Shown one piece after another: positions 7,393 through 58,114 of a stretch of 64,000 nt of DNA. The notes below the pieces were generated by a model, which saw only the letters and a list, made by a program, of their open reading frames with translations, was not told the origin of the DNA and did not search any database. The DNA is taken from NCBI GenBank assembly GCA_017458335.1, contig JAFTFT010000013.1, forward strand, positions 54,617-118,616, given 5' to 3'. The translations under genes and the position numbers were made by a program. Position 1 is the first letter of the stretch, and every line of letters starts with the position of its first letter. This DNA is from Oscillospiraceae bacterium (GTDB taxonomy: Bacteria > Bacillota > Clostridia > Oscillospirales > Oscillospiraceae).

Positions 7393-7401
7393 AGAGACAG
7401 G

Positions 7402-7439
7402 TCACGGGGGCATGAAAGATATCCTCTGTGATTTTTTTT
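7402..7439 (+). terminator. Riboswitch 2 intrinsic terminator
   Basis: TCACGGGGG pairs with CCTCTGTGA (nine pairs, two of them G-U) and is followed directly by eight T residues. Confidence 0.85.
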
Positions 7440-8189: not shown

Positions 8190-8224
8190 TTATATTGTTT
8201 AATCGGATCTTTCGGGAGGATTCT

Positions 8225-9034
8225 ATGCTCGATTTCAACGGTCTGACCCGGATCAAGGAGGAGCGTCCGCTGCTGCACTGTGTCAGCAACATTGTCTCGG
8301 CCAACGACTGCGCCAACCTGGCTTTGGCGGTCGGGGCCAGTCCCATGATGGCGCAGGCCCTGGAAGAGATGACCGAGATTACGGCCATTTCTTCTGCGAC
8401 GGTGCTCAATACCGGAACACCGGACAGGGAACGCTTTGCGGTATGCCGGATCTGCGGTCAGGCGGCGCAGGCAATCGGCCAGCCGGTTATTCTGGATCCG
8501 GTCGGCGTCGGCGCAGGCAGCTGGCGTCTGAAGGAAGTAACGGGCCTCCTGGAAAGCTTCCGACCCTCCATCATCCGGGTGAACCTGGGAGAAGCCGAGG
8601 CGCTTTGCCGTCGGAAAGGTTATGAGCAAGGGGTAGACAGCACGGTACCCGCAGCCCCGGAGAAGAGAGCGGCACTGGCGAACGAGCTCGCCTGCCGCTA
8701 TGAAACCACGGTTCTGCTGACTGGAGATGAGGATGTTGTCAGTGATGGAATCGACACCCTTGTCGTTACTGGTGGAAGCCTGCGGATGGCCCGAGTCACA
8801 GGTACAGGATGTATGCTTTCAGTGCTCTGCGGCGCATTTGCGGCGGTAGAATCGGATGCGTTTGCGGCGGCGGCATTGGCATCCGCATACTGGAAGCTCT
8901 GCGCAGAACGTGCATCCGAAGCGACGCAGGGTCGCGGAATTGGGAGCTTCCGGGCGGAACTCATGAATGCTGCGGAACAGATAGACGCAAAGGCGCTGGA
9001 AGCACGCGGGAATATCCGGACGATTTCGGGATGA
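8225..9034 (+). CDS. thiM: Hydroxyethylthiazole kinase
   Basis: This 269-residue ribokinase-like enzyme phosphorylates 4-methyl-5-(2-hydroxyethyl)thiazole. Recognisable motifs are NIVSANDCANLALAVGASPMM (N-terminal substrate loop), LDPVGVGA and the anion hole/catalytic VTGTGCMLSVLCGAF. ATG 8225 follows GGGAGGATTCT; an earlier in-frame start lacks a ribosome site. It is part of the TPP-regulated salvage operon between thiW and thiE. Confidence 0.95.
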   Translation: MLDFNGLTRIKEERPLLHCVSNIVSANDCANLALAVGASPMMAQALEEMTEITAISSATVLNTGTPDRERFAVCRICGQAAQAIGQPVILDPVGVGAGSWRLKEVTGLLESFRPSIIRVNLGEAEALCRRKGYEQGVDSTVPAAPEKRAALANELACRYETTVLLTGDEDVVSDGIDTLVVTGGSLRMARVTGTGCMLSVLCGAFAAVESDAFAAAALASAYWKLCAERASEATQGRGIGSFRAELMNAAEQIDAKALEARGNIRTISG

Positions 9035-9050
9035 GCGGAGGAAAGAACCG

Positions 9051-9680
9051 ATGAAAAGAGACGATCTGACCCTGTACGCAGTGACGGACAGAAGCTGGCT
9101 CGGAGAGGAGAGCCTCGGTGTACAGGTGGAGAAGGCGCTGAAAGGCGGCGCAACTTTTGTCCAGCTGCGGGAAAAGCATCTGGATGGAGAGAGCCTTCTG
9201 AGAGAAGCAAGGGAGATCGCGTCTTTGTGCCATATATATGGCGTTCCTTTCGTTGTCAATGACAATGTGGAAATTGCCATCGCATGCGGCGCGGATGGTG
9301 TCCACGTCGGGCAGGAAGATATGGCAGTACCAGAGGCAAGACGTCTTCTCGGTCCGAATATGATTATCGGCGCTACCTGCAAGACGGTAGAGCAGGCGAT
9401 CCGGGCCCAGGAGCAGGGGGCGGATTATCTCGGCTCGGGAGCGATGTTCTCAAGCATAGCAAAGCCTAATGCACAGCCGATCAGCTTTGAGACCCTGCGG
9501 GATATTTGCGGCGCGGTAACGATTCCTGTCGTCGCTATCGGCGGGATTGCTCGGGACAATGTCAGGCTGCTTCGGGGCTGCGGAATCGCCGGGGTTGCGG
9601 TGGTCAGCGCCATATTCGCCCAGCCGGACATTGAGGTCGCGACTCGGGAGCTCTATCAGACGGTCACACAGATTCTGTGA
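9051..9680 (+). CDS. thiE: Thiamine-phosphate synthase
   Basis: This 209-residue TIM-barrel enzyme joins HMP-PP and thiazole phosphate to thiamine phosphate. Motifs are GGATFVQLREKHLD, the Mg/pyrophosphate site VNDNVEIAIACGADGVHVGQED, and GATCKT with YLGSGAMFSS. Length and motifs are normal for the family. Confidence 0.96.
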   Translation: MKRDDLTLYAVTDRSWLGEESLGVQVEKALKGGATFVQLREKHLDGESLLREAREIASLCHIYGVPFVVNDNVEIAIACGADGVHVGQEDMAVPEARRLLGPNMIIGATCKTVEQAIRAQEQGADYLGSGAMFSSIAKPNAQPISFETLRDICGAVTIPVVAIGGIARDNVRLLRGCGIAGVAVVSAIFAQPDIEVATRELYQTVTQIL

Positions 9681-9690
9681 TCCATATACA

Positions 9691-9713
9691 GGCGGAGAGC
9701 GAAGCTCTCCGCC
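9691..9713 (+). other. Stable intergenic hairpin between thiE and thiD
   Basis: GGCGGAGAGC, a GAA loop and GCTCTCCGCC form a perfect 10-bp stem with no T tract. It may stabilise the upstream mRNA or partly attenuate transcription. Confidence 0.5.
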
Positions 9714-9785
9714 GCGGCACATTGGGGGCACCACCTTGGGCCGCGTAATAAAATCATTGCTGTACAACAGGAAAGGAGAATTCTT

Positions 9786-10583
9786 ATGAAGACAGCATTG
9801 ACAATCGCTGGGTCAGACTCCAGCGGAGGCGCCGGAATTCAGGCCGATATCAAGACCATGACGGCAAACGGCGTGTTCGCCATGAGCGCCATCACGGCTC
9901 TGACCGCCCAGAATACCACCGGCGTGCAGGGGATCTTTGAAGTTCCCCCCGAGTTCCTTGCGATGCAGATCGACAGCGTGTTTACCGACATTCGGCCGGA
10001 TGCAGTCAAAATCGGGATGGTTTCATCGGTGGAGCTTATCGAGACCATTGCTGAACGCCTGACCTTTTACAGGGCAGGAAACATCGTGGTCGATCCTGTC
10101 ATGGTCGCGACCAGCGGTTCCAGGCTTCTGAGCGATGACGCGGTGGATACGTTGAAGGCAAAACTCCTGCCGCTTGCTGCGGTGCTGACACCGAATATCC
10201 CGGAGGCAGAAGTCCTTGCCGGGATGGAGATCCGTTCAGCGGATGATATGGTTCTGGCAGCGGAGACAATCGGCAGAACCTATGGCTGTTCGGTTCTATG
10301 CAAAGGCGGGCATCAGCTCAATGACGCCAATGATCTTCTCTGGAAGGCCGGGAAGATCCGGTGGTTCTATGGCAAGCGGATCAACAACCCGAATACCCAT
10401 GGTACCGGCTGCACTCTTTCAAGCGCCATTGCCTCAAACCTCGCGAAAGGCTGCGATCTGGAAACGGCCGTTGAGCGCGCAAAGATATATATCTCGGGTG
10501 CGCTGGCGGCAATGCTGAACCTGGGGAAAGGCTCCGGTCCGATGAACCATGCTTTTGCCATCGACGGCGAATTCGCTGGATGA
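9786..10583 (+). CDS. thiD: Hydroxymethylpyrimidine/phosphomethylpyrimidine kinase
   Basis: This 265-residue ribokinase-fold enzyme makes HMP-P and HMP-PP. Motifs are TIAGSDSSGGAGIQADIKTM at the N-terminus, DPVMVATSG, and the catalytic NTHGTGCTLSSAIAS near residue 205. It has a strong AAAGGAG site and full length. Confidence 0.96.
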   Translation: MKTALTIAGSDSSGGAGIQADIKTMTANGVFAMSAITALTAQNTTGVQGIFEVPPEFLAMQIDSVFTDIRPDAVKIGMVSSVELIETIAERLTFYRAGNIVVDPVMVATSGSRLLSDDAVDTLKAKLLPLAAVLTPNIPEAEVLAGMEIRSADDMVLAAETIGRTYGCSVLCKGGHQLNDANDLLWKAGKIRWFYGKRINNPNTHGTGCTLSSAIASNLAKGCDLETAVERAKIYISGALAAMLNLGKGSGPMNHAFAIDGEFAG

Positions 10584-10595
10584 GAGGGCGGCAAC

Positions 10596-11264
10596 ATGGA
10601 GATGACAGTCACCGAAAGGCTGCTTGCCTGCACGGGAGAGCTCTGGAAGGCTTATCTTGAGCATCCCTTTGTCCGGGGTATCGCAGACGGAAGCTTGGAC
10701 GAAAAAAAGTTCCGATACTACATGGTGCAGGACTACATTTACCTGATTGATTACGCAAAGGTCTTTGCCCTGGGCATCGCGAAAGCCCGGGACATAAAGA
10801 CCATGCGCCTATTTGCTAATTATGTCCATCAGATTCTGGATGGGGAAATGGACATTCATAAGGGATACATGAAAAGGCTCGGCATCGCACTTTCGGATGC
10901 GGAGTCTGCGGAGCCTGCGCTGGACAACCGCTCGTACACTGCATATATGATGCGGGTGGCCTACGACGAGGGCCCGGCAGAGATTGCCGCGGCGATCCTC
11001 TCCTGCGCGCTAAGCTATGAACATATAGCCCGCCGCGTGTTGGAGATGCACCCCGCGGCTGATCAGCACCCGTTCTATGGGGAGTGGGTCAGTGGTTATG
11101 CCAGTGACGATTATCACAAAGCCAATCTGGAGCTGATTGACCTGACCGAACGCCTCACCGCCGGTTGTACCGAAGTGCATCTGAGACACCTGGAGGAAAT
11201 CTTCATGGTCTGCTCCCGCTATGAGATGGCTTTCTGGGATATGGCTTGGGAGATGAGACACTGA
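10596..11264 (+). CDS. tenA: Thiaminase II / aminopyrimidine aminohydrolase
   Basis: This 222-residue all-alpha TenA enzyme hydrolyses 4-amino-5-aminomethyl-2-methylpyrimidine to HMP so that degraded thiamine can be reused. The catalytic Cys is C137 (ILSCALSYEHIA), and the substrate region YYMVQDYIYL is present. The stop codon abuts the start of the next gene (TGAATG). Association with the thiXYZ-type importer that follows fits pyrimidine salvage. Confidence 0.93.
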   Translation: MEMTVTERLLACTGELWKAYLEHPFVRGIADGSLDEKKFRYYMVQDYIYLIDYAKVFALGIAKARDIKTMRLFANYVHQILDGEMDIHKGYMKRLGIALSDAESAEPALDNRSYTAYMMRVAYDEGPAEIAAAILSCALSYEHIARRVLEMHPAADQHPFYGEWVSGYASDDYHKANLELIDLTERLTAGCTEVHLRHLEEIFMVCSRYEMAFWDMAWEMRH

Positions 11265-12017
11265 ATGCTGGACTTTGAGCATGTTGTGTTCCAGTATGCG
11301 GTCGAGGACTTCAACATCATCGATGATCTGAGCTTCCATGTAGAGAAAGGGGAGTTCGTCTCGATCATCGGCCCTTCCGGTTGCGGCAAGAGCACCATTT
11401 TCCGCCTGATCAACCGCCTGCTTCAGCCTAAATCCGGGGAAATTCGTATCGCAGGGGAGAGCATTTACCAAAAGAAGAGCCCCTGCGGATACATGCCGCA
11501 GCAGGATCTGCTTTTTCCCTGGCGAACCGTAGAAGAAAACCTCCGTCTTCCGATGGAGATCCGGGGAGGTCTTTCCAAAGCGGAAATGAAAGAAAAAACA
11601 GAGGAAGCGCTGAAGAATGTCGGGCTGGAGGCCTGGGGGAAGAAGTCGCCCTCGGAGCTCTCGGGCGGCATGCGTCAGCGTGCCGCTTTTGCCCGCACCC
11701 TGCTCACGGGAGCGGATCTTCTGCTGCTGGATGAACCCTTCTCGGCGCTGGATTACCTGACCCGCATTAGCATGCGGGAGTGGCTGCTGCAGCAGTGGGA
11801 GCGGGAAAAGAAAACCGTTTTATTCATCACACATGACGTTGAGGAGGCAATCTATCTCTCTGGCCGGATCCTGGTGGCGGAGCAGATGCCGATTACCGGA
11901 CTAACCTCGGTATCGGTACCGCTTGGGTATCCCAGGGGCATCGAGACGCTGAAGGAGACAGCGCTTCTGGAACTCAGGGAGCAGCTGATCCGAAAGCTGA
12001 GGAGGGACGCCGAATGA
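11265..12017 (+). CDS. thiZ: ThiZ-like ABC transporter ATPase (pyrimidine import)
   Basis: This 250-residue nitrate/sulfonate/taurine-class ABC ATPase has Walker A GPSGCGKST, signature LSGGMRQR, Walker B LLLLDEPFSALD and switch His in FITHD. Its ATG directly follows the tenA stop, and its end overlaps thiX by four bases. With the permease and the NMT1/THI5-like binding protein it forms a ThiXYZ importer for formylaminopyrimidine or HMP-type precursors. Confidence 0.88.
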   Translation: MLDFEHVVFQYAVEDFNIIDDLSFHVEKGEFVSIIGPSGCGKSTIFRLINRLLQPKSGEIRIAGESIYQKKSPCGYMPQQDLLFPWRTVEENLRLPMEIRGGLSKAEMKEKTEEALKNVGLEAWGKKSPSELSGGMRQRAAFARTLLTGADLLLLDEPFSALDYLTRISMREWLLQQWEREKKTVLFITHDVEEAIYLSGRILVAEQMPITGLTSVSVPLGYPRGIETLKETALLELREQLIRKLRRDAE

Positions 12018-12769
12018 AGAGTACAAACAGGGCGAATCTCCCCGCGGCAATTCTGGTGCTTCTGCTGCTGATGGTCTGGCAGGCGGCAGCTATAGGGATG
12101 GACGCGGCATATATCCTGCCTTCCCCCGCGCAGGTGCTGCGCCGCCTCTGGGAACTGCGAAAACCACTGTTTTGCGCCCACCTGCCGGCAACGATGTCAG
12201 TGGTCGGGATCGGATTGCTGATTTCAATTGTTCTTGGCCTCGCACTCGCGATTCTGATGGACCTCAGTCCAGTCGCTGAAAAAGCTCTGTATCCATTGGT
12301 CATCGCATCCCAGACCATCCCGACGACGGCGCTGGCACCGCTGTTTGTGCTGTGGTTTGGCTATAGCATCTGGAGCAAAGTCCTGGTCACGGTGCTGATG
12401 ACCTTCTTCCCGGTGACGATCACGGTGTTTGACGGGTTCCGATCCGTGCGGGCGGACATGAAGGACCTGATGACCTCGTTCGGTGCGAACCCGGGACAGA
12501 TCTTTTTGAAGCTCAAGCTTCCGGCGGTTATGCCGTATTTCTTCTCGGCGCTCAAAATGGCGATTCCGCTCTCCATTATCGGAGCGGCGATCGGCGAGTG
12601 GCTTGGCGCTCAAAGCGGGCTTGGCTACTTCAGCCGCCGGATGATGACCCAGCTGGACGGAGCAGGCGTGTTTGCGCCGATCCTGCTGCTCTCGGCGGCG
12701 GCGATGCTGCTTGTCGCGCTGGTGAACCTGGTTGAACGTCGTGTCATTATCTGGCGCAGCAACATGTAA
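12014..12769 (+). CDS. thiX: ThiX-like ABC transporter permease
   Basis: This 251-residue inner-membrane permease has about six TM helices and the BPD_transp_1 coupling loop (near residues 155-185: DLMTSFGANPGQIFLKLKLP). It belongs to the SsuC/ThiX group and is translationally coupled to the ATPase gene (ATGA overlap). Confidence 0.88.
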   Translation: MKSTNRANLPAAILVLLLLMVWQAAAIGMDAAYILPSPAQVLRRLWELRKPLFCAHLPATMSVVGIGLLISIVLGLALAILMDLSPVAEKALYPLVIASQTIPTTALAPLFVLWFGYSIWSKVLVTVLMTFFPVTITVFDGFRSVRADMKDLMTSFGANPGQIFLKLKLPAVMPYFFSALKMAIPLSIIGAAIGEWLGAQSGLGYFSRRMMTQLDGAGVFAPILLLSAAAMLLVALVNLVERRVIIWRSNM

Positions 12770-12809
12770 CGGATTCCATGAATAATGAATGAAAGGAAAG
12801 GAATATTCC

Positions 12810-13919
12810 ATGAAAAAAAATATCTACCAGCTTCTAGCATTGATCCTCTGCCTCGGAATGCTAGCCGGATGCGGTCAGAGCGCGAAACCAGAAGGCAACA
12901 CTGCCGTACCGGCAGAAACCGCAGAAACCGTATCTGAACCAGCAAGGCACGAAGAGCCGGTGGCAGAACAAGTAGAAAAAACCTCCACAGGTTCGGATGA
13001 TAAGCCGCTTCGCGAGATGAACGTTGTCTTGGACTGGTATCCCAATGCGCTGCACAGTTTCATATATACCGCAATTGAGCGCGGTTACTACGCCGAGGAA
13101 GGATTGAACGTCGTTGTCCGTTTCCCGGCTAATGACAACGACGCTCTGGCTCTCGTCGCTGCCGGGAAAGCGGAAATCGGTCTGTACTACGAACACGATA
13201 TCATCCAGGCTGTGGCCAATCAGAATGTGAAGATCAAATCTATCGGTGCGGTGGTTCAGTCTCCGCTGAACGTGATTCTTTCCTTGGAGGAAAAGAATAT
13301 TACCACCCCAAAGGATTTGGTCGGCAAGACGGTGGGATACGGTGGAACCGCCCTGAGTGAGGCGCTGGTGAAAACCATGATGTCCTCCTGCGGCGAAGAT
13401 CCAAATGATGTGAACCTCATTAATGTCGGTTTTGAACTGATGAGCTCGATGACCACAAATAACGTGGATGCCACCATCGGCTGCCTCGTGAACCACGAGG
13501 TCCCGCAGATGGAGGAAGAAGGCTTCGATGTCAACTATTTCCTGGTGAACCAATACGGCATTCCCAATTATTATGAGGCGGTCTTCCTTACCAACAGCGA
13601 GATGATTGAGAAAGAGCCGGAGGTCCTGGCGGGCTTCCTGCGTGCGTCCGCAAGGGGCTTTGAGGACTTCAAAGAGGACCCGGACGGCTGTCTGGAAATC
13701 CTGCTGAAGAACCAGAATGAGGAGAATTTCCCCCTATCTCCGACAGTGGAGAAAAAATCCTGTGAAACGCTGCTTCCACTGATGGAGACCGATGATGCTG
13801 CTTTCCTGAGCCAGACAGAAGCAAACTGGCAGGAAAATATTGACTGGATGAAGGAGAACGGTCTGATCGAACGGACGATCTCTGTGTCGGACGTGATGGC
13901 GGAGATTGACTGGAGATAA
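12810..13919 (+). CDS. thiY: ThiY-like lipoprotein, pyrimidine-binding protein
   Basis: This 369-residue lipoprotein has the lipobox LAGC near residue 18, a Glu/Ala/Pro-rich linker, then an NMT1/THI5-like domain starting LDWYPNALHSFIYTAIERGY. The DWYPN motif marks the ThiY/THI5 pyrimidine-binding group. ATG 12810 follows AAAGGAAAGGAA. It ends the operon, with an intrinsic terminator 22 bp later. Confidence 0.9.
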   Translation: MKKNIYQLLALILCLGMLAGCGQSAKPEGNTAVPAETAETVSEPARHEEPVAEQVEKTSTGSDDKPLREMNVVLDWYPNALHSFIYTAIERGYYAEEGLNVVVRFPANDNDALALVAAGKAEIGLYYEHDIIQAVANQNVKIKSIGAVVQSPLNVILSLEEKNITTPKDLVGKTVGYGGTALSEALVKTMMSSCGEDPNDVNLINVGFELMSSMTTNNVDATIGCLVNHEVPQMEEEGFDVNYFLVNQYGIPNYYEAVFLTNSEMIEKEPEVLAGFLRASARGFEDFKEDPDGCLEILLKNQNEENFPLSPTVEKKSCETLLPLMETDDAAFLSQTEANWQENIDWMKENGLIERTISVSDVMAEIDWR

Positions 13920-13940
13920 CGAGCACTCAGGCAAATGAAT

Positions 13941-13975
13941 CAACCCTCCCGGTTTCGGGAGGGTTGTCGGTTTTT
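13941..13975 (+). terminator. Terminator of the thiamine operon
   Basis: CAACCCTCCC and GGGAGGGTTG form a perfect 10-bp stem with a 6-nt loop, followed by TCGGTTTTT. Confidence 0.9.
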
Positions 13976-14002
13976 ATGGGCTTGTTCCGGCCCCGGAAAT
14001 GC

Positions 14003-15121
14003 TCAGGTTTCGGCGTTTCTCGATGCCGCGATGTCCGCCATGATCTGCTCGACCTGGGCCCGCTGGGTAAAGAGCACGCAGCCGCCCACATGGGCTTCTT
14101 CCAGTACATGCTTCTCGCGCAGCGCATCAAACAGCTGAGACTTCATCGCGTCCCGAAGAGAGGTCGTCTTCACGTTGATATCCGAGTACGGGGAGAAGGG
14201 ACACGGTTCCGCTCCGCCGTGGGAATTGATGTGGAAGAACTCTCTTCCCGCCGCCATGCAGCCGCCCATCGCGAGCTCGTCTCCCGGGAAGGACAGCAGC
14301 ACCATGTCGTCATACCTGCTGCGCAGCGCGTCAACGGCTTCCGCCATGTAGGCGCGCTCCTTCTCTCCCGGCGCCAGGTGCATCGCCTCCTCGGTGACGG
14401 GGACGAACTCCACATAGATCACCAGCTTGCAGCCCTGCTCGGCCAGCCCCCGGACAAAGGCCTCGGAGATGACCTCCTGTACGTTCTCGGTGGTCACGGT
14501 GATGGACGCGCCGAAGATCAGGCCCTTCTCCTGGAACCTCTTCATGTTGGCGGTGACCCGGTCATAGATTCCCTCGCCCCGCCGGGCGTCGGTGATCTCC
14601 CTGCCGCCCTCGATGCTGAGGACCGGAACAAGGTTGCGGCACTCATCCAGCAGTTTGAAATACCGCTCGTCGATGAAGGTCCCGTTGGTGAACACCGGGA
14701 AGATGATGTTCTGCATGCTGCCGGCCGCCTCAATCACGTCGCGGCGGATCATGGGCTCGCCGCCTGCCAGCATGATAAAGCTCACGCCCAGCTCGTCCGC
14801 CTCCCGGAATACCCGCAGCCACTCATCGCGGCTCAGCTGTTCCACGGGAGCCGCGTCGACGGTGGCGTTGTTGCAGCGCGAGTAGCAGCCCGCGCAGTGC
14901 AGGTTGCAGCTGCTCGTGATGCTCGCAATCAGGAAGCCCGGCACATGCAGGCCCTCCTGCTCCAGCTTCATGCGGGTCTTCGAGGCCTTCCGGCTGGCCG
15001 CGGCGAAGCGGACCATGAAGGCGCTCTCTTTGGGGTTCTTCAGCGTCGCCTTGATGGTATCTGAAACGATCTTTTCGACACCCTGTTCGATGTGTTTCTG
15101 TAAATCAAAGGTCTCTTTCAT
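14003..15121 (-). CDS. Radical SAM protein with SPASM-like C-terminus
   Basis: This 372-residue protein has the radical SAM cluster motif C72-x3-C76-x2-C79 (CNLHCAGC), followed by FIMLAGGEPMIRRD (SAM binding) and a Cys-containing C-terminal region (GGCMAAGREF, EPCPFSPY, HVGGCVLF) that resembles a SPASM or twitch domain. About 60 residues precede the motif. Substrate is unknown. No precursor peptide gene could be recognised next to it, so a RiPP role is not supported. ATG 15121 follows AAGGAGCCGGATC. Confidence 0.85.
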   Translation of the reverse strand: MKETFDLQKHIEQGVEKIVSDTIKATLKNPKESAFMVRFAAASRKASKTRMKLEQEGLHVPGFLIASITSSCNLHCAGCYSRCNNATVDAAPVEQLSRDEWLRVFREADELGVSFIMLAGGEPMIRRDVIEAAGSMQNIIFPVFTNGTFIDERYFKLLDECRNLVPVLSIEGGREITDARRGEGIYDRVTANMKRFQEKGLIFGASITVTTENVQEVISEAFVRGLAEQGCKLVIYVEFVPVTEEAMHLAPGEKERAYMAEAVDALRSRYDDMVLLSFPGDELAMGGCMAAGREFFHINSHGGAEPCPFSPYSDINVKTTSLRDAMKSQLFDALREKHVLEEAHVGGCVLFTQRAQVEQIMADIAASRNAET

Positions 15122-15179
15122 GATCCGGCTCCTTCTTTAAATCTTTCTTTAAGTCTTTGCTTTTGACTGTTTTCTCCAC

Positions 15180-15208
15180 ACTGTAAAAGAGAAACACCCA
15201 TTTGTCAA
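15180..15208 (-). promoter_or_regulatory. Promoter of the radical SAM gene
   Basis: TTGACA (15208-15203), a 17-bp spacer and TACAGT (15185-15180) lie 59 bp before the start. The rest of the 249-bp gap to 15370 shows no other supported feature. Confidence 0.65.
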
Positions 15209-15370
15209 TGACATATTTTTTCAACGCCGCTCCCGCTGCAGTTTCCCGCTTGATTTCTCTCCGGAAGCGAATAAAATAAAGCCTGATCAGGGCAGAAGTC
15301 ATGACGGGAATGATCTGGGCCGTCGCATGCCGCATGCCCGATCACAGAGGCAGAAAGGAGCCGAAGAGAG

Positions 15371-15874
15371 ATGAAAACCGCCGAACAGCTTGTCCATCCG
15401 TTTCCGCCAACCTGGGACGAACACTCCGAGATTCTGATTTTGGGGAGCTTTCCCTCGGTGAAGTCCCGGGAAATGGCGTTTTTCTACGGTCATCCGCAGA
15501 ACCGCTTCTGGCGCCTTGTCGCCGCTCTGTATGAGGACACCGCCCCGCAGAGCGTGGAAGAGCGCCGCGCCTTTCTGCTCCGGCACCATATCGCGCTCTG
15601 GGACGTGATCGCCTCCTGCTCCATCGTCGGCTCCTCCGACAGCAGCATCCGCGACGCCGTGCCGAACGATATCCGCCCCATTCTCGCCGGGGCCCCGATC
15701 CGCGGGATCTATACCAACGGCCAGACCGCCTTCCGCCTGTACCGGAGGTATCTTCTTCCGGAGATCGGCCGGGAAGCCGTCTGTCTTCCCTCCACCAGTC
15801 CGGCCAACGCCGCCTGGTCCTTTGACCGGCTGACCGAGGCCTGGCGGGTAATCCGCAGGACTGAAACGTCATGA
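15371..15874 (+). CDS. DNA-deoxyinosine glycosylase (UDG superfamily)
   Basis: This 167-residue single-domain enzyme of the uracil-DNA glycosylase fold carries the family signature HPFPPTWDEHSEILILGSFP and SVKSREMAFFYGHPQNRFW, then LWDVIASC and a late PSTSPAN box. Members excise hypoxanthine (deaminated adenine) from DNA. ATG 15371 follows AAAGGAGCCGAAGAG. It is a stand-alone gene with a terminator at its end. Confidence 0.9.
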   Translation: MKTAEQLVHPFPPTWDEHSEILILGSFPSVKSREMAFFYGHPQNRFWRLVAALYEDTAPQSVEERRAFLLRHHIALWDVIASCSIVGSSDSSIRDAVPNDIRPILAGAPIRGIYTNGQTAFRLYRRYLLPEIGREAVCLPSTSPANAAWSFDRLTEAWRVIRRTETS

Positions 15875-47925: not shown

Positions 47926-48873
47926 TCAGAGCATCCGCAAGCCCGTAATCAGCATTTTCAGGCCTATGGACGTGACCAGAACGGCGCTTGCTTTCAGGAA
48001 GTATTTGTTCCATTTCTTTGGAATCAGCGCCCCCAGCGCGCCGAACAGGAACAGCAGCGGCGCCGTGCCGAGGGCGAAAGCCAGCATGCTTTCCGCGCCA
48101 TAGGCCGCGCTGCCGCCCGAAACGGCGTGCAGCCACATGGCGTAGAGCGAACCGCAGGGCATCAGCCCTGTGAGAAGTCCGATCACAAGCGGTCTGCCCG
48201 CAAAGCGTTTCTGCGTTTTCGTGGGCAGCTGGCAAAACGAAGGCTGTGACGGAAACAGCGTGGCGACGCCCGGCAGCAGCCCCCAGAGGTTCAGACCGAT
48301 CAGAACGACCACAAGCCCCACCATGGTGAAGACCATGGATTTGACGTTCATGGAGTAGGCAATCACGGTTCCCAGCGCGCCGAAGATCCCGCCAATGGCG
48401 GTATAAGACAGGATGCGCCCACCGTTATAAGCGAGGGAGGCAAGCACAGGGGAGCGGCTCTGGGCACAGTTTCCCAGCAGGATCCCGCCGCACATACCGA
48501 GACAATGGGGACTGGTCATCAAACCCAGCAGGAAGGCCGCACCAAAGCCTGCACTGTCGCCGGGCTCCATGCCGTGGTGGCTGCCGCCCAGCAAAAACCA
48601 GGTAAGCAGCAGCGTCAGCGCAAGGCAAAGCCCGTCCAGCGCAAGACCGCTGAGACCCCGATCCCCGGACTGATAACCATTTTCGGCAAGACGTTTTCGC
48701 ACATCGTCCAGGCTCACAAGCTCCGGATCGTATTCGAGCTGTGCCTGCCCCTTGAGGTAGCTGACCTTCGCGCGGATCACGCCCCGCGTGTGGAGCAGCA
48801 GCGCTTCCACCTCGCCCACACAGCTTCGGCAGATCATGCCGCGGATCTTCAATTCCTGTATTTCAGTTTTCAT
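47926..48873 (-). CDS. HMA domain fused to TauE/SafE (UreH-like) membrane protein
   Basis: This 315-residue protein has an N-terminal heavy-metal-associated domain with the metal pair GMICRSC (residues 13-18) and a six-TM TauE/SafE/UreH-type domain (MTSPHCLGMCGGILLGNC; GLLTGLMPCGSLYAMW). Such fusions are linked with copper or other transition-metal handling. It overlaps the P-type ATPase gene by 11 bp. Confidence 0.85.
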   Translation of the reverse strand: MKTEIQELKIRGMICRSCVGEVEALLLHTRGVIRAKVSYLKGQAQLEYDPELVSLDDVRKRLAENGYQSGDRGLSGLALDGLCLALTLLLTWFLLGGSHHGMEPGDSAGFGAAFLLGLMTSPHCLGMCGGILLGNCAQSRSPVLASLAYNGGRILSYTAIGGIFGALGTVIAYSMNVKSMVFTMVGLVVVLIGLNLWGLLPGVATLFPSQPSFCQLPTKTQKRFAGRPLVIGLLTGLMPCGSLYAMWLHAVSGGSAAYGAESMLAFALGTAPLLFLFGALGALIPKKWNKYFLKASAVLVTSIGLKMLITGLRML

Positions 48874-50485
48874 AGTGATTCAATCGCAACGAGTGCAGCA
48901 AAATGCCGTTGGACGAGAGCGTCATGGCTGCCGCGGCGATGGAGGGGTTCACGATCCCGCAGGCCGCGACAGGAATACAGATCAGATTATAAAACAGCGC
49001 CCAGCCGAGGTTTTGCCGCACCGTCCTTCGGGCAGCTTTGGCGAGCCGCAGCGTCTGCGGCACCCGACCGATGCGTCCGCCGGGCAGCACCGCGTCGGCA
49101 CACTCGATGGCAATGTCCGTTCCGGTGCCCATGGCGATCGCGAGATCGGCTTCCGCCATGGCCGGGGCGTCGTTGATCCCGTCGCCCACCATGGCGACGC
49201 GGCGACCCTCATTTTTCAAGCGAGTGATCTGCGCGGCCTTTTCCTCCGGCTTCACCTCGAAGAGAATGTGCTCGATCCCGCATGCCTGGGCGATGCGTCT
49301 TGCCGTTTCCTCCTTGTCGCCGGAGATCATCCAGACCTCCAGCCTCATCGCCCTGCAGGCGTCGACAGCACATTTCGCATCTTCACGCAGCGGATCGCGG
49401 ATGCCCGGCTCTACGCGGCCTTCGGTCAGTGTGCCGGTTTTGTCAAAGACGACCGTATCAATGCTCCATGCCTTTTCGATGGCCGAGGCGCCTTTGAAGA
49501 GGATCCCCAGTTCCGCCGCCCGTCCGGAAGCCGTCATCAAGGCGGCAGGCGTGGCGAGCCCCAGCGCACAGGGGCAGGCGATCACCAGCACGCCGCAGAC
49601 TGTCGAGACCGCCTTTCCCCAATCCCCGGGAGCGAGCAGGAAAAACCACAGCGCAAAGATCAGTACCGCAAGCGCGACAACAGATGGGACGAAGATCGTG
49701 GCGATCCGATCCGCGAACCGCTGGACGGGCGCCTTTTCGCTCTGCGCACGGCGCACGAAGGCCGCCATCTGCTGCAGGGTCGAAGCCTCTCCGACAGATG
49801 TCGCTATGTATGTAACTTTACCCTCGCGGTCAAGCGTACCGCCGGTGATGCTGTCGCCGGGATTTTTTTGCACGGGAACGCTCTCACCGGTCAGCAGCGA
49901 CTCGTCCACCAGACAGTTTCCCTCAAGAATCTTCCCGTCAGCGGGAATACGCTCGCCGGGGCGGAGCAGGATCGTGTCGCCGGAGACAATTTCCGATGCA
50001 TCGATCTCGACCTCGATCCCATCCCGCAGCACGATCGCGGTCTTGGGCTGCAGGCGCAGAAGGCTGCGCACCGCTTCTCCGCTCTGGTAGATCGCCACGG
50101 ATTCCAGATAGCGTCCGAAGAGCAGCAGCGAGATCAGCACCCCGTCACAGAGAAAATAGAGCTTGATGTTCTCCGTCACAGTGAAGGCGACGACTGTGCT
50201 GTAGGCATAGATCACCGTAGTGGAGAGCGCCACCAGCAGATCCATGCCAAGGCTGCGGTTTTTCAGCCCACGGATCGCATTTCGGACAAAGTACAGACCC
50301 GGCCAGAATTGCAGCACCGTTGCCAGCACAAACTGGAAGCGCGGCGGCAAATCCCAGAGAAGCGGCATGCTCAGCGCTGTGGAGGCGATCAGCAGCCGTA
50401 GCAGACGGAAACGCTGCTTGAGCTCCTCCGCCTCATCCCCGAACACCTCGCAGCCGCAGCCGAGGACAACGCCTTCCTTATCCAA
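48863..50485 (-). CDS. P1B-type metal ATPase lacking the nucleotide-binding domain
   Basis: This 540-residue protein has TGES (199-202), metal motif ACPCALG (CPC 304-306), DKTGT (348-352) and GDGINDAPA (434-442). From DKTGTLTEGRVEPG it passes directly to IRDPLREDAKCAVDACRAM and ISGD (388-390). The ~110-120 residue N-domain with the SEHP/GxG ATP-binding motifs is therefore missing in frame. It starts with TTG 50485. There is no N-terminal HMA domain, but a CGC pair lies at 10-12. Without an N-domain it should not bind ATP normally. Confidence 0.88.
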   Translation of the reverse strand: MDKEGVVLGCGCEVFGDEAEELKQRFRLLRLLIASTALSMPLLWDLPPRFQFVLATVLQFWPGLYFVRNAIRGLKNRSLGMDLLVALSTTVIYAYSTVVAFTVTENIKLYFLCDGVLISLLLFGRYLESVAIYQSGEAVRSLLRLQPKTAIVLRDGIEVEIDASEIVSGDTILLRPGERIPADGKILEGNCLVDESLLTGESVPVQKNPGDSITGGTLDREGKVTYIATSVGEASTLQQMAAFVRRAQSEKAPVQRFADRIATIFVPSVVALAVLIFALWFFLLAPGDWGKAVSTVCGVLVIACPCALGLATPAALMTASGRAAELGILFKGASAIEKAWSIDTVVFDKTGTLTEGRVEPGIRDPLREDAKCAVDACRAMRLEVWMISGDKEETARRIAQACGIEHILFEVKPEEKAAQITRLKNEGRRVAMVGDGINDAPAMAEADLAIAMGTGTDIAIECADAVLPGGRIGRVPQTLRLAKAARRTVRQNLGWALFYNLICIPVAACGIVNPSIAAAAMTLSSNGILLHSLRLNHYEN

Positions 50486-50984
50486 GCCGCGCGTCCTTTT
50501 TCAGTCTGCGCCAGTGCTTGAAGCCGATCACGGCACAGGGCACGCAGCAGGGCACCATATGAAACAGCAGCACCCAGCTCAGCCAGTCGACGCCCTGATA
50601 GAAATTACCCTGGTATTCCACGCCTTTCATCAGCGCAAAGTAGGAGAAGTTCCACACGCCCCAGAGACCTGTGGCCGAGCCGAAGAGGTGCAGGCCCAGG
50701 AAAGACGCCGGCGTGAAGATACCGCCGATCGCCCCGACGAGGGTGGCGGACATGCGGCGGGATTTGGCGAGGAAGATCGTGATCACGGGAAAAATGTACA
50801 CGGTGAGATTCAGCGCCCAGATCGCGAGTGGGATGTGATAGCCCCAGTTGAGCGCCTGACGGATGTGGTCGCCGTCGTGAATCAGCACGGCGATGACCAT
50901 GACGACTCCGCAGATGAACATGGTATGCGCGGTTTTTTCGTCCAGCTTCTTGTCGAGCATGGCGGCGGTCTGTTTGTTTGACAT
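50478..50984 (-). CDS. Four- or five-TM membrane protein of the metal operon
   Basis: This 168-residue protein has TM helices and intramembrane His/Cys residues (LIHDGDHIRQALNWGYHIPL; LLFHMVPCCVPCAVIGF), consistent with metal or haem contact. It overlaps the ATPase gene by 8 bp. ATG 50984 follows GAGGGATCAAAC. The family is not recognised. Confidence 0.7.
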   Translation of the reverse strand: MSNKQTAAMLDKKLDEKTAHTMFICGVVMVIAVLIHDGDHIRQALNWGYHIPLAIWALNLTVYIFPVITIFLAKSRRMSATLVGAIGGIFTPASFLGLHLFGSATGLWGVWNFSYFALMKGVEYQGNFYQGVDWLSWVLLFHMVPCCVPCAVIGFKHWRRLKKDARLG

Positions 50985-51005
50985 GTTTGATCCCTCACAA
51001 AGCAT

Positions 51006-52044: not shown

Positions 52045-52091
52045 TTGTAGCACTTGATAAACAATTATCTGCTATCCCCAAAGAAGAACAC

Positions 52092-52111
52092 CTCCGCCGG
52101 TCTCGGCGGAG
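52092..52111 (-). terminator. Terminator of the FmdE-like operon
   Basis: CTCCGCC and GGCGGAG form a 7-bp stem followed on the minus strand by GTGTTCTTCTTT. Confidence 0.55.
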
Positions 52112-52140
52112 AGCTTTTCATATGCCGATTTCTTTTTCTG

Positions 52141-52770
52141 TCATAGGAAAAAGCCGGTAGGAGCAGACCTCATACTGACTGCATCTTCCGATGCAGCGAT
52201 GTTGAACCGGAACAATTCGTCCGGCCTAAGTCTCAGAAGCTGCTGCTCCGTGGCTTTTCTGACATTCATCAGTTCCTTTATTTCTCTGCTCGATGGTTTA
52301 CTGCCGTCATCGTGCAGCGTGTGCATCTTTCTGGAAATTGCGAAAAAATCGCCTCCAATGATTCCCTCCCGTACGCTGGCTTCCCATGACATATCCCCTA
52401 TCGTTCCGGAAAAGTAATACTTACCCCCGCCCGGAGCAGCCGGAGCATCTTTCTCCTGACAGGCTCTGATATCCGTATGAAGGCATCCCCTGCTTCTCAC
52501 ACGATACACTGCTTCTGCCGTATCGATGATTCCCTGCCCGTTCCACCCGAGCCCCGTATAAAAAGATACGCTCCTTCGTTCCGGCACCTCTCCGCACAGA
52601 TCCTGATAGTGCGCCGTCAGTCCCATGAACATACGGAAGGCAAGAGCCACGCCGGCAGGCATGGCTCCCCCATGATAATTCATGATACTGTCATAGCAAA
52701 ATCGGAGATACCTTCCGTCTTCCTGAACGAGCAGGGTTTCCTGTTCAGTCGAAGAAAAGGGCAGAGACAT
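52141..52770 (-). CDS. FmdE-like protein
   Basis: This 209-residue protein has the stretch YDSIMNYHGGAMPAGVALAF, which resembles the FmdE domain pattern (Y.GH..PG.ALG.R) of formylmethanofuran dehydrogenase operons. Further features are FYTGLGWNGQGIIDTAEAVY and a possible metal Cys in RGCLHTDIRACQ. ATG 52770 overlaps the binding-protein gene by 26 bp and has GAGGAG seven bases upstream. The role is unknown; it is the last gene of the importer operon. Confidence 0.65.
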   Translation of the reverse strand: MSLPFSSTEQETLLVQEDGRYLRFCYDSIMNYHGGAMPAGVALAFRMFMGLTAHYQDLCGEVPERRSVSFYTGLGWNGQGIIDTAEAVYRVRSRGCLHTDIRACQEKDAPAAPGGGKYYFSGTIGDMSWEASVREGIIGGDFFAISRKMHTLHDDGSKPSSREIKELMNVRKATEQQLLRLRPDELFRFNIAASEDAVSMRSAPTGFFL

Positions 52771-53674
52771 CGAAGGGCTCCTCAATCATCTCGGAGCTGT
52801 ACATGAAGTCGGCAGTCTTCTGGAAGCCCGCTATATCCTCTTCGCTGATCTCAAGAGAAAAGTCATAATAATCCGCCATTTCCTTCACGGCGTCCACATC
52901 CAGATCCAGATAATCGCCGGCCGTCGCATATGCCGCTTCAGGGTCTGCTTCAATCCGTGCCATTACAGCTTCTTCCGCTTCCCTGATCTTGGCGATCACA
53001 TCCGGATGGGCATCGTAGAATTCCTGCGTGACGGCAACGGCAATAATCGCCTGGATCAGGCCATCGCCGTTTGTAATAAGATGATACCCTGCTTTGGAGG
53101 CATTGTAAGCCGCCGCACCGCCCAGCATTGCCACATCCGCACTGCCGCCGTCCAGAGCTGCCTTCGCATCGGGGATGCTCATACTGACGTAGTTGACCTC
53201 CGCGATGGTCATACCGGCTGTATTCAGATAAGCAACCAGCAGCTCATGCAAATTTGTTCCGGCAGGGCCGGCAATGGTCTTGCCGCGCAGCGACTCCGGG
53301 CTGGTCAGGCTGTCGTCCTTGGAATAAAGGCAGAAAGCCTTCGGGGCTCTGCTGTACATATTGAGCACCTTGATATCTGCACCGTTTGCCGCGGAGAGGA
53401 TGATAGAGGTTCCGCCGACAGCGTAAAGGAGCTGAACATCACCCGAAGCGAGCGCCTGTGTCTGGTCAGCGCCGGAAGTAATTTCGGCATACTCTACCGG
53501 AATCCCAAGGGTTTCGGTGAAGATTCCGTTCTCTTTCTCTACGATGCTGGGAATATTCAGTGGCGAAGTCACATAAGTCGCTGTCAGGCTGTCTACCGAA
53601 AGCCCGTCAGCAAACGCTGTAAAGCAGCCTGCTGTCACCATGAGTGCGAGAATGATTGCGAAAACTTTTTTCAT
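52745..53674 (-). CDS. SsuA/TauA-class ABC substrate-binding protein
   Basis: This 309-residue protein has a signal peptide or lipobox (LMVTAGCFTAFAD) and a nitrate/sulfonate/taurine-type periplasmic fold (SIVEKENGIFTETLGIPVEY, LRGKTIAGPAGTNLHELLVA, YLDLDVDAVKEMADYYDF). The ligand is unknown. ATG 53674 follows TGGAGGAAAACAGT. Confidence 0.85.
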   Translation of the reverse strand: MKKVFAIILALMVTAGCFTAFADGLSVDSLTATYVTSPLNIPSIVEKENGIFTETLGIPVEYAEITSGADQTQALASGDVQLLYAVGGTSIILSAANGADIKVLNMYSRAPKAFCLYSKDDSLTSPESLRGKTIAGPAGTNLHELLVAYLNTAGMTIAEVNYVSMSIPDAKAALDGGSADVAMLGGAAAYNASKAGYHLITNGDGLIQAIIAVAVTQEFYDAHPDVIAKIREAEEAVMARIEADPEAAYATAGDYLDLDVDAVKEMADYYDFSLEISEEDIAGFQKTADFMYSSEMIEEPFDVSALFFD

Positions 53675-53713
53675 ACTGTTTTCCTCCATTTGATCTTTCT
53701 ATTCCAGCCCGTA

Positions 53714-54442
53714 TTATACGGGAGTGGAATCATTTGGCTTTTCCAGCGCCGAGACAATCGCACGCCGGACCGCGATGAGCTCATCGCACAGGATGTCGCG
53801 CGGCTGCTTCTGCGGCAGCCGGTACTCTGCGGAGACCACGCCTTCGGAAATCAAAATAATTCTGTCCGCCAGGGTCAGAGCCTCATCGATGGAATGGGTC
53901 ACGAAAAGGATGCTGGCATCGGTTTCGCGGCGGACCCGCAACAGTTCCTGTTGCATACTCTCGCGGGTAAAATGATCCAGCGCAGCGAATGGCTCATCCA
54001 TCATAATAAATGACGGCCGATAAGCCAGCGCCCTGGCAAGGGCAGTACGCTGCTGCATTCCGCCTGACAATTGATGCGGTTTGGACTTTTCAAACCCGTC
54101 AAGGCCCACCGTATGGATAATCCGGGCCGTATCTTCACGATTTCTCTGATTCTTTTTCTGTCCGAACTCAATGTTGTCTCTGACGTTCAGCCAGGGCATC
54201 AGACGCGGTTCCTGGAAAACGAAGGCTGTTTTCTGTTCTCCGGGAAATCTGATTTCCCCGTTTTCCGGTTCTTCCAGTCCGCCGACCAGACGCAGAAGCG
54301 TTGTTTTCCCACAGCCGCTTTTCCCCAGTACCACGGTAATTTCCCCTTCAGGGAGGGTCAGTTCGATCCCGCGAAGGACCTGCAACGTACCGGATTCCAT
54401 CTTATAAGACTTTGTCAGTCCTCTGATTTCAATTCCAGCCAT
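53714..54442 (-). CDS. SsuB/TauB-class ABC transporter ATPase
   Basis: This 242-residue ATPase has Walker A GKSGCGKTT, FQEPRLMPWLNV (typical of the SsuB/TauB group), signature LSGGMQQR and Walker B FIMMDEPFAALD. ATG 54442 lies within the permease 3' end (14-bp overlap). Confidence 0.9.
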   Translation of the reverse strand: MAGIEIRGLTKSYKMESGTLQVLRGIELTLPEGEITVVLGKSGCGKTTLLRLVGGLEEPENGEIRFPGEQKTAFVFQEPRLMPWLNVRDNIEFGQKKNQRNREDTARIIHTVGLDGFEKSKPHQLSGGMQQRTALARALAYRPSFIMMDEPFAALDHFTRESMQQELLRVRRETDASILFVTHSIDEALTLADRIILISEGVVSAEYRLPQKQPRDILCDELIAVRRAIVSALEKPNDSTPV

Positions 54443-55196
54443 TCTGCGCAGTGCCTCCCACAAAACAACGAATCAACAGCCCCAGCAGCCGATCTGTACC
54501 GTATCCGACCGTCCCGATTACAAAAATCCCGACGATGACCTTATCTGTTCTGGACATCTGCTGTGCAAACAGGATCATATGTCCGAGGCCCGTTGATGCC
54601 GCAACCATTTCCGCGCCGATGATCGCGCGCCAGGAGTAGCCCAGGCTGGTCCGCATTCCGACCAGGATATCCGGCACTGCGGAAGGAAGGATCACTCGCA
54701 CAAAGGTTCTCATGGGGCTGTATGAGAATGATCGTGCAACTTCAAGCAATTTTCTGTCACACCCGGTAAATCCTTTGACAATGCTCAGGTACATCGGGAA
54801 AAAGGATGCCAGAACAATGATGACCGTTTTTGTTGTCTCTCCGATCCCGCACCAGAGAATAAGCAGAGGGATCAATGAAAGCGGCGGTACATTCCGGAAA
54901 AACTGAATCAGGTATTCATAATACGGTTCACTCTTTGGGAAGAAAATACGAAATGCAGCGATCACGAAGGCCAGCAGGAACGCAATTCCAAAGCCCCGTA
55001 ATACACGCCCGAAGCTGATCGCAATATCCCGGAACACCTCTCCTGTCTTCAGCATTTTCAGGAATGTAGCCCAGACTTTCTGCGGCGAGGGCAGAACATA
55101 AGAATTAAATATGCCCGCCCAGCACACGAAATACCATGCAGCGAAAATCGCTGCGATTCCAATCAGAGCGGGTACCCATTTGTTCTTTTTCTTCAT
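54429..55196 (-). CDS. SsuC/TauC-class ABC transporter permease
   Basis: This 255-residue permease has about six TM helices and the coupling region EVARSFSYSPMRTFVRVILP, with YSWRAIIGAEMVAASTGLGH. It starts three bases after the H-cluster-like gene ends, so it is in the same transcript. Confidence 0.9.
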   Translation of the reverse strand: MKKKNKWVPALIGIAAIFAAWYFVCWAGIFNSYVLPSPQKVWATFLKMLKTGEVFRDIAISFGRVLRGFGIAFLLAFVIAAFRIFFPKSEPYYEYLIQFFRNVPPLSLIPLLILWCGIGETTKTVIIVLASFFPMYLSIVKGFTGCDRKLLEVARSFSYSPMRTFVRVILPSAVPDILVGMRTSLGYSWRAIIGAEMVAASTGLGHMILFAQQMSRTDKVIVGIFVIGTVGYGTDRLLGLLIRCFVGGTAQNGWN

Positions 55197-55199
55197 TGT

Positions 55200-55799
55200 C
55201 TATACCCCGTCGCCGTTGTGGCAGCCCCCCGGGCAGAAAAGCGCTTCAAACAGCCTTGTTTTCAGCGGAAGTGATGCCGCCCTTTCTGTAATTTCCTGCC
55301 CCCCGGTGGCGGTAACGGTTACTACTCCGAGTGGATCAAAAAATCCGGGAGGAATAGGGCTGCAGTCGAGCTGTTTCACGGAATGATATCCAATTACGTC
55401 AAGAAACTCCCTCGCTGTTATAAATACCGTCCGCGGAAGCTTGAAACGATTCCCTTGTTCTGCAAGCGCCCGGCAGGGAGTTGTTACCACAATCTCTCCC
55501 TCTTGCAGATCTTCTCTGTCAGACAGTTCTTTCGCGCAGTGAAGTAAAATCGGCAGTACCGGCGCTTCCCGGATTCGGTCAATATGCAAAGCTCGTACAA
55601 GCTCAACCGCCATGGGACATCGCGTGTCCAAAACGGTCTTATCCTCTGTTTGCAGCACCGCAGAATATTCTTCAAGGACACGCCGAGTCCAGTTTTCCCT
55701 GCAGAATACTCGGCGTAAGCCGTGCTCATGCAATGCTTTCTCAAGTTCTTCCGGGTTTGTCATCCTGTCTGTGACTGGATTAATCAGCACATAAGTCAT
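55200..55799 (-). CDS. Minimal [FeFe]-hydrogenase H-cluster-like protein
   Basis: This 199-residue protein keeps the order and spacing style of the hydrogenase large-subunit C-terminal domain: P1-like DTRCPMAVELVR (C61), P2-like VVTTPCRALAEQ (C109), and P3-like LFCPGGCHNGDGV (C189, C193). All four H-cluster cysteines have counterparts, as does a GATGG-like VTATGGQEI. It lacks the FeS-rich N-terminus and is far shorter than HydA (~350 residues for this domain). It opens an operon with an SsuABC-like importer and an FmdE-like gene. Catalysis is not implied; binding of an iron or other cofactor is plausible. Confidence 0.65.
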   Translation of the reverse strand: MTYVLINPVTDRMTNPEELEKALHEHGLRRVFCRENWTRRVLEEYSAVLQTEDKTVLDTRCPMAVELVRALHIDRIREAPVLPILLHCAKELSDREDLQEGEIVVTTPCRALAEQGNRFKLPRTVFITAREFLDVIGYHSVKQLDCSPIPPGFFDPLGVVTVTATGGQEITERAASLPLKTRLFEALFCPGGCHNGDGV

Positions 55800-55997
55800 C
55801 GCAGCATCCTACGAAGTTAACATGAGTTTGATTAAACTTACCACAAGTTTATCACAACATGCCTACCAGGTCAATAGGTTTTTATTTTGTCCCTAGGGGA
55901 AATCGACTTTTTCTGTGATCGTATTCTCCTGTTCAGACCGGTCAGCTGTAAATAGTCATGATGCCCTCGAGTACCCCTGTTCAACCTGCGTATGTTC
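55800..55997. other. Divergent intergenic region before the trans-sulfuration gene
   Basis: This AT-richer stretch separates the importer operon (minus) from the PLP enzyme (plus). It contains short TTTGATTAAACTTACCACAA-type inverted half-sites near 55827-55850 but no confirmed -10/-35 for the minus operon. Confidence 0.35.
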
Positions 55998-56053
55998 TTG
56001 ACAACGCCTGCTCATTGCTTTATAATAACCTATCATTATTATAGGTTATTATA
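55998..56053 (+). promoter_or_regulatory. Promoter with overlapping 13-bp inverted repeat operator
   Basis: TTGACA (55998-56003), a 17-bp spacer and TATAAT (56021-56026). TATAATAACCTAT (56021-56033) and ATAGGTTATTATA (56041-56053) are exact inverted copies with 7 bp between, covering the -10 and start site, so a repressor is expected. Confidence 0.85.
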
Positions 56054-57490: not shown

Positions 57491-58114
57491 GTGTGCTTCA
57501 CCATCGGTTATCACGGTTTCATCAACTGGGCCGGGCTTCACAGCTTCATCGCAGCGTTCACCCGGCGCCATCCGGAAATTGAAGTGTCTATCCTGCAGCA
57601 ACAGATGAAGGAACTTGCGGATTATCTGGAGCTCGGCACGCTGGACGTTGCCTTCGTGGAGGCCTCCGAACTGCGCGACCGGAACGAACTGTCCTCCCTG
57701 GCTCTGTTTCAGGAAAAGACCTGCTTTGCCGTTCCGCTGACTCATCCTCTCGCAGACAGAGATCGCGTGACAATCGACGATCTGAAGGGCGAAACCATTG
57801 TGATGAACAACCACCCGTCCGTCTGCATGGACGAACTGATCGGAAATCTGATCCGCTCCGGAATCCGGCAGGAACAGTTCCACTTCGTTGATCAGCCGGA
57901 TGTGGCGCTGGCACTCTCCGTGGCCGGTATGGGTCTGACCTCTCTGCCGATCTCCTTCCGTCAGGACGGCATCCCGCTCCGCTATGTGGAGTATGACACA
58001 CCGGTCTGCCGCATGTCCTACTCTCTGGCCTGGCGCAGTGGCACCGATAATTCTGCGGTCCGGCTCTTCTGCGGAGAAGTCAGTCGGACGGACTGGCCCT
58101 ATGCCGGAAGTTAA
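57491..58114 (+). pseudogene. LysR-type regulator lacking its DNA-binding domain
   Basis: This 207-residue frame opens at GTG 57491 with FTIGYHGFINWAGLHSFIAA and continues through a full LysR substrate-binding domain (LELGTLDVAFVEASELRDRN; VALALSVAGMGLTSLPISFR). The ~85-residue helix-turn-helix part is absent: a stop and unrelated AT-rich DNA with an FmdE relic lie upstream. There is no ribosome site. It is probably a broken gene. Confidence 0.75.

Follow-up and report, generated by a model that had tools for sequence, protein, structure and literature searches.

Why should a piece of a hydrogenase be encoded at the head of an importer operon? The question is raised by a stretch of 64,000 nt (the window, whose positions are used throughout) from contig JAFTFT010000013.1 of an Oscillospiraceae bacterium. 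Here five minus-strand genes run from 55799 to 52141 as a tight operon and encode a small protein that we call H, an ABC (ATP-binding cassette) permease, an ATPase, a substrate-binding protein and an FmdE-like protein. Profile comparison identifies H as a shortened hydrogenase H-domain, and most related operons carry a match to the Fur box in front of H. The answer we favour, with slightly more doubt than belief, is that this is a Fur-controlled importer of iron starvation, in which H is a [4Fe-4S] protein that handles the cargo and the FmdE-like protein is an optional partner.

According to this proposal, the SsuABC/TauABC-type transporter would import a small ligand, which most likely bears iron or assists in its acquisition. 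H would act in the cytosol as an electron-transfer or metal-handling [4Fe-4S] protein, most likely giving an electron to the imported compound, or accepting metal from it, so that iron is released. Where present, the FmdE-like protein would be a metal- or chelate-binding partner in the cytosol. The cluster of H, the identity of the cargo and the reductive release are the steps that we infer.

The order, strand and spacing of the five genes are as the initial annotation described them. H and the permease are separated by a 3-nt gap, the permease and ATPase genes overlap, a 24-nt gap precedes the binding protein, and the binding protein and FmdE-like genes overlap. The features are:

55200..55799, minus strand: H, a 199-aa minimal H-domain protein and the operon's first gene; cysteines 61, 109, 189 and 193
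54429..55196, minus strand: SsuC/SaoP-like ABC permease (PF00528, 1.3e-21)
53714..54463, minus strand: SsuB/TauB-like ABC ATPase (PF00005, 1.3e-30); TTG at 54463, with an internal ATG after it
52745..53689, minus strand: substrate-binding protein of the SsuA/TauA clade (SsuA_fam, 1.2e-33); signal peptide by eye
52141..52770, minus strand: FmdE-like protein, 209 aa from the ATG at 52770, 214 aa from the TTG at 52785
55846..55874, minus strand: sigma-70-like promoter 5' of H, TTGACC-17-TAAACT; consensus match only
52091..52112, minus strand: terminator-like hairpin 3' of the FmdE-like gene; consensus match only

H is a shortened hydrogenase domain

The single H sequence matched Pfam PF02906 at E = 0.0013 and 18.8 bits (cut-off 22.1), over a 29-residue C-terminal stretch (P3) only. 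A profile of 12 H sequences (A3), in which the H of L044 is a partial row as its open frame lacks the N-terminus, was then compared with 31 HydA H-domains by hhalign. The two matched with a probability of 93.8% (E 1.7e-7), and the score of 55.1 compares with a maximum of 25.4 in 100 column shuffles and 16.8 for the reversed profile. The alignment spans the start of the domain through P1 and P2; an earlier trial, in which one of the 12 HydA H-domains was badly clipped, gave an alignment over the full length, P3 included, at a probability of 66.7. With five Pelosinus-type H-domains, described below, added, the match had a probability of 96.0 (E 3.8e-9). A HydA hidden Markov model run on the 11 H proteins of the five-gene operons found those of L055 (5.9e-7) and L045 (9e-4), and the other nine only at E >0.01. 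Profiles A3 and A4 compared with the PDB gave no FmdE match and weak hydrogenase P3 matches, the best at E 0.12.

The evidence from one sequence is weak, and the homology is firm because 12 homologues were used. By profile-profile comparison over P1-P2 and P3, H belongs to the H-domain superfamily and is genuinely homologous to the H-domain of [FeFe]-hydrogenase, with an internal shortening. The H-domain match that had been predicted is therefore present, but the accompanying statement that H lacks the rest of hydrogenase went too far. H can be aligned with the H-domain from its beginning as far as P2, P1 included, and what is missing is a stretch before P3 and the N-terminal ferredoxin domains.

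Residues were counted in 23 H proteins, the 12 of the profile and L159-L169; L169 was kept although its P3 failed the motif regular expression, and L170 was left out. The four cysteines first noticed in P1-, P2- and P3-like contexts (C61, C109, C189 and C193) are invariant in all 23, together with R60, P62, P108, G192, G196 and G198. The lysine that follows the P2 cysteine in 31/31 HydA domains is a leucine in 22 H proteins and a phenylalanine in one. Arg60, in every H, takes the place of the first cysteine of HydA P1 (TSC), found in 29 of the 31 domains, and C61 aligns to the second position of TSC-C/S-P, a cysteine in 20/31 and a serine in 8/31. We take the P2 lysine to be placed by the two-iron ([2Fe]) subsite, which these positions presumably line in CpI, and assume that the first P1 cysteine has a role in proton transfer. 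The P3 methionine, present in 16/16 matched HydA domains, is leucine in 15 and phenylalanine in 8 of the H proteins. Neither it nor the P2 methionine was used as a test, because the P3 pattern caught only 16 of the 31 HydA domains and the P2 methionine occurs in only 19.

As the four motif cysteines are kept and the P2 lysine is lost, H is expected to be no hydrogenase but a [4Fe-4S] protein that transfers electrons or handles metal. Judged by these residues, a [4Fe-4S] cubane in H is likely and a full H-cluster unlikely. A complete H-cluster that makes or senses hydrogen would fit the conserved cysteines and the HydF maturase, which is over the cut-off in 11 of the 15 genomes with H. However, the lysine is replaced throughout, H has its internal deletion, and no HydF reaches the cut-off in the window's genome, L050, L052 or L054, assemblies that may be incomplete. 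We give a hydrogen-handling H almost no credence.

Probable iron control

The idea of Fur control came first from the upstream sequences and a Bacillus consensus. For the count we used the published C. difficile consensus, TGATAATVAWHWTCA (PMC6311696; this and the other papers cited are represented by excerpts), and scanned 250 nt 5' of H in 16 loci, taking two mismatches or fewer as a match. L044 (start unclear), L170 (masked bases), and L175 and L161-L165 (closely related to L174 and L177 and represented by them) were left out. A match was found in 13 of the 16 loci, compared with 76 of 1150 control windows (binomial 2e-13). Most of these control windows are coding sequence, and the 16 regions were therefore also compared with their own dinucleotide shuffles, which match them in composition and gave an expectation of 2.13/16 (P 2e-10). 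Both P values treat the loci as independent, while several are related. By eye, the box overlaps a promoter in several loci.

L174 links the operon to published expression data. It is C. difficile or very close to it, as the ssuA2 sequence printed in PMC7438776 occurs in it with 40/40 nt identical, and its genes run H-permease-ATPase-binding protein. A perfect match to the Fur consensus lies 37 nt 5' of its H; the excerpts of PMC6311696 report no Fur site for this operon. They describe CD630_29890-29920 as ssuA2, ssuB2, ssuC2 and an 'uncharacterized protein, iron hydrogenase-like' (CD630_29920). In Table 1 of that paper the log2 transcript changes of these four genes, in that order, are 2.60, 2.91, 3.53 and 2.93 in low iron, and 4.39, 4.50, 6.10 and 4.38 in a fur mutant.

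The initial annotation had supposed that the two proteins may use iron or another metal as a cofactor in sensing, storing or processing what is imported. The Fur boxes, the C. difficile induction and the position of FmdE homologues beside metal transporters (PMC2954224, excerpts) all support the part of this that concerns iron.

Could H itself be the sensor, its Fe-S cluster reporting the iron or redox state and controlling the importer or the operon? H is encoded by the first gene, H-domains serve as regulatory domains of clostridial sigma-54 activators (PMC6615313, excerpts), and the H profile found a 591-residue frame in which ferredoxin motifs, an H-domain and an extended C-terminal region can be made out by eye. 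However, Pfam and NCBIfam found no DNA-binding or output domain in H, and Fur boxes explain the control in most loci. A sensory H seems distinctly unlikely.

Conservation and distribution of the operon

Relatives of the operon were reached through both end genes. Scanning with an alignment of the FmdE-like protein gave 120 relatives, of which the best 80 were kept, representing 79 distinct loci. Eleven of these (L044-L047 and L049-L055) have the order H-permease-ATPase-binding protein-FmdE-like, with H identities of 33-45%; as they were found through the FmdE-like gene, they contain it by construction. A search of 71 Peptostreptococcaceae genomes found H in 12, and two more genomes matched. 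L173 was rejected as an H, being a hydrogenase by its motifs, and the 575- and 642-aa frames of L171 and L172 were not read.

The six loci fetched through H all have H followed by permease, ATPase and binding protein, but the FmdE-like gene is present in only one (L176) and is absent from anywhere in the other five genomes. Of the five genes first thought to stay together, four do so in these loci, and the FmdE-like protein is optional in H operons. The converse case is Syntrophomonas L061, where importer and FmdE-like genes lie beside corrinoid methyltransferase-type genes in a genome with no H. There, at positions 2665-15516, a B12-binding protein, a RACo-like protein and two proteins of URO-D type are encoded ahead of a pair of importers, both of which have their own FmdE-like gene.

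The single H sequence, used as a query against genomes of the order (394) and of the genus (101), returned only the window's own H; such a query may miss distant H proteins. The operon is therefore patchy, and conservation of the neighbourhood across Oscillospiraceae, which had been proposed as a check, could not be shown. Scans of viral and genome contigs with the same sequence found none. A match in L006 is by eye a ScpB-like protein and due to chance, and a weak P3-like match in a 170-aa frame (G402) was dropped, as it lies antisense inside a 627-aa plus-strand frame of L039.

The five-gene order is also carried by L054, a metagenome-assembled genome titled Ottowia. Ottowia is a betaproteobacterium, and its copy suggests transfer between phyla. 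Two other neighbourhoods were recorded. In L047 (10606-11899) a cation-efflux gene under a NiCo riboswitch is convergent with the H operon, and in L046 (6188-7138) a hydrogenase-type protein with an H-domain, truncated at the end of the contig, starts about 450 nt 3' of the FmdE-like gene.

The FmdE-like protein and its pairing with H-domains

The resemblance to FmdE that was first seen in a motif is real by profile-profile comparison, though under Pfam detection. None of four family members tried, the window's protein (at E<=1) among them, matched PF02663, and G000 gave no PF02663 match at E<=0.001. A 26-member profile of the family matched 31 canonical FmdE proteins in hhalign with a probability of 95.6 (E 1.3e-8), scoring 60.1 against a maximum of 26.7 in 100 shuffles. 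An earlier comparison with two canonical FmdE proteins was not significant (score 20.1, shuffles up to 19.4). The larger comparison makes the FmdE-like protein a remote homologue of FmdE, related through the core domain. It has neither HGH-x-CPG and the other canonical cysteines nor the C-terminal zinc finger.

In 32 of the 79 loci the FmdE-like gene has a FecCD permease gene no more than 6 kb away, and the excerpts of PMC2954224 describe most FmdE homologues as adjoining metal-ion transporters. The FmdE-like family is sparse, with one other genome in 400 of the bacterial family and one other in 341 of the class.

Some of its settings are unusual. In Halomonas L091 (7038-14715) a single run contains FecB-FecCD-ATPase genes, the FmdE-like gene and the C-P lyase genes phnGHIJ (Pfam), followed by phnK- and phnL-like genes (by eye), an unusual importer for C-P lyase. 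Similar FecBCD and FmdE-like sets were found by tblastn in L092-L096. In L040 (134-6477), a contig of Flavonifractor type, a cobalamin riboswitch (2660-2777) comes after two genes, one NifH-like (by eye) and the other nitrogenase-component-like (Pfam), and is itself followed by FecB, FecCD, ATPase and FmdE-like genes.

Pelosinus-type loci are a second, different importer setting for the pair of H-domain and FmdE-like proteins. In all five (L058 and L062-L065) a gene for a short H-domain protein is directly 5' of the FmdE-like gene, with genes for a TonB receptor and a small membrane protein within a few kb. As L062-L064 are close relatives, these amount to about three independent cases. Their H-domains match HydA with a probability of 99.6, and that of L063 matches PF02906 at 1.5e-23 and has ferredoxin-type motifs; the H profile finds these proteins weakly (E 0.57 to 1.3).

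Conceivably, H-domain proteins and FmdE-like proteins work together in the cytosol as a module of two parts that recurs with different importers and processes an imported metal complex. The cubane of H would then act on a metal centre that the FmdE-like protein offers, and, by analogy with HydA, its bridging cysteine would perhaps hold a second metal. We consider this module unlikely as a whole; if true, it would be a new, hydrogenase-derived route of iron acquisition under Fur control.

Iron, sulphur or a sparing of iron?

Pfam and NCBIfam place the three transporter genes in the SsuABC/TauABC type, in agreement with the SsuABC-like importer first proposed, and by these matches the importer is of that type. 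The best NCBIfam models for the permease are SaoP (155.4 bits, cut-off 295) and SsuC (154.2, cut-off 347), and the ATPase scores 170.4 bits with SaoA (cut-off 360). The binding protein is also under the cut-offs, with 116.6 against 163.5 bits for SsuA_fam and 60.3 against 304.25 bits for TauA. The solved structures closest to its family (profile A5) are TauA 6ssy (1.9e-24) and SsuA 2x26 (2.9e-23).

A number of observations weigh against an iron importer under Fur control. By these comparisons the binding protein is closest to taurine and sulfonate binders and not to iron-chelate binders. The excerpts of PMC6311696 treat the C. difficile operon as a sulfonate transporter tied to sulphur metabolism and, as no Fur site was found, call the effect of Fur indirect. 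CD2989 has been given a SigH promoter in one C. difficile paper, and cysteine induction of CD2989-2991 is mentioned from unpublished data (PMC5767170). The window's own copy has no Fur box (its best site has 4 mismatches, and 593 of 1263 control windows are as good), nor do L047 and L054, and in L052, L053 and L176 the match taken singly lacks significance (shuffle P 0.12, 0.14 and 0.21). Neither partner is obligatory, since L061 has no H and five of the six loci fetched through H have no FmdE-like gene. Finally, the P1 ligand was assigned by the proline that follows it, and the register of C61 is therefore not certain and could be off by one.

Several of these points would suit an importer of sulfonates or other organosulphur compounds, whose expression follows iron through sulphur-iron coupling and in which H and the FmdE-like protein take part in the reductive release of sulphur. 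The kinship with TauA and SsuA, the reading of the C. difficile authors and the induction by cysteine all favour it, as does the gene for a Cys/Met-metabolism pyridoxal phosphate (PLP) enzyme (Pfam) that adjoins the window operon divergently. However, that gene is unmatched in the 13 other loci compared, some of which are short contigs, and no monooxygenase or desulfonation enzyme is among the five conserved genes. The frequency of Fur boxes, with the perfect one in L174, and the company that FmdE homologues keep with metal importers also argue against it. We therefore regard the organosulphur reading as improbable, though deserving real weight.

The binding protein also matches NMT1/THI5 (Pfam), which would be expected if the operon spared iron by importing an organic precursor (of thiamine, for instance) that is otherwise made with Fe-S enzymes, which fail at low iron. 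In L050, thiM-thiE-thiD-like genes (by eye), preceded by a thiamine pyrophosphate riboswitch, are just 5' of H. Such genes were seen in L050 only, however, no riboswitch was found directly 5' of H in the 12 loci scanned, and sparing iron leaves H without a role. This explanation appears quite improbable, and uptake of an iron-related ligand remains the one that we prefer.

Other features of the window were noted near the operon. An inverted repeat with 12-nt perfect arms (56022-56052), possibly an operator, lies in the promoter region of the divergent PLP enzyme gene. A frame at 57491-58114 has a LysR substrate-binding domain without the N-terminal DNA-binding part and is possibly a remnant. 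Further downstream on the operon's strand, past one opposite-strand gene, 47926-51005 encodes an HMA-DsbD_2 protein, a P-type ATPase without an HMA match and a protein of no Pfam family.

Comparison with known systems

Open-licence PMC literature yielded no description of this system beyond excerpts of PMC6311696, PMC2954224, PMC6615313, PMC7438776 and PMC5767170. The operon shows that a hydrogenase active-site domain has been trimmed and put to a new use beside importer genes, in a setting that seems to respond to iron and occurs in clostridia, C. difficile among them, and in the genome titled Ottowia. A strongly iron-induced C. difficile operon known only as 'ssu' gains a testable function, and two unexplained families, degenerate H-domains and the FmdE homologues beside metal importers, are tied together. 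For gut bacteria this may point to an as yet unstudied route of iron acquisition or use.

The nearest described system is that C. difficile ssu operon, CD630_29890-29920, which shares H, permease, ATPase and binding protein with the window and, through the exact ssuA2 match of L174, has a true orthologue of H. It differs in having no FmdE-like gene, and the excerpts of PMC6311696 describe it only as a transporter of sulfonates, accompanied by an uncharacterised protein called 'iron hydrogenase-like'.

The H-domain of HydA (PF02906) is homologous to H by profile and has the same four motif cysteines, but H lacks the ferredoxin domains and the stretch before P3, and its P2 lysine is replaced. 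Nar1/NARF-type H-domain proteins are not known to make hydrogen, are longer and belong to eukaryotic Fe-S assembly; H stands apart from them by its length of about 200 aa and its place in an importer operon.

The permease and ATPase recall the SAO (selenocysteine-assisted organometal) transporter, with SaoP as the best NCBIfam model of the one and SaoA matching the other, but both score about half of the curated cut-offs, and no other Sao model is among the matches listed for the seven window proteins scanned. FmdE itself (PF02663) shares the core domain with the window's protein and, in the excerpts of PMC2954224, a place mostly beside metal-ion transporters, but the window's protein is without the HGH-x-CPG motif, the other cysteines and the zinc finger. 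Short H-domain proteins of Pelosinus and Propionispora type also resemble H, as they have the four cysteines and directly precede an FmdE-like gene. They differ from H in keeping the P2 lysine, in their TonB receptor setting and, in L063, in having ferredoxin-type cluster motifs.

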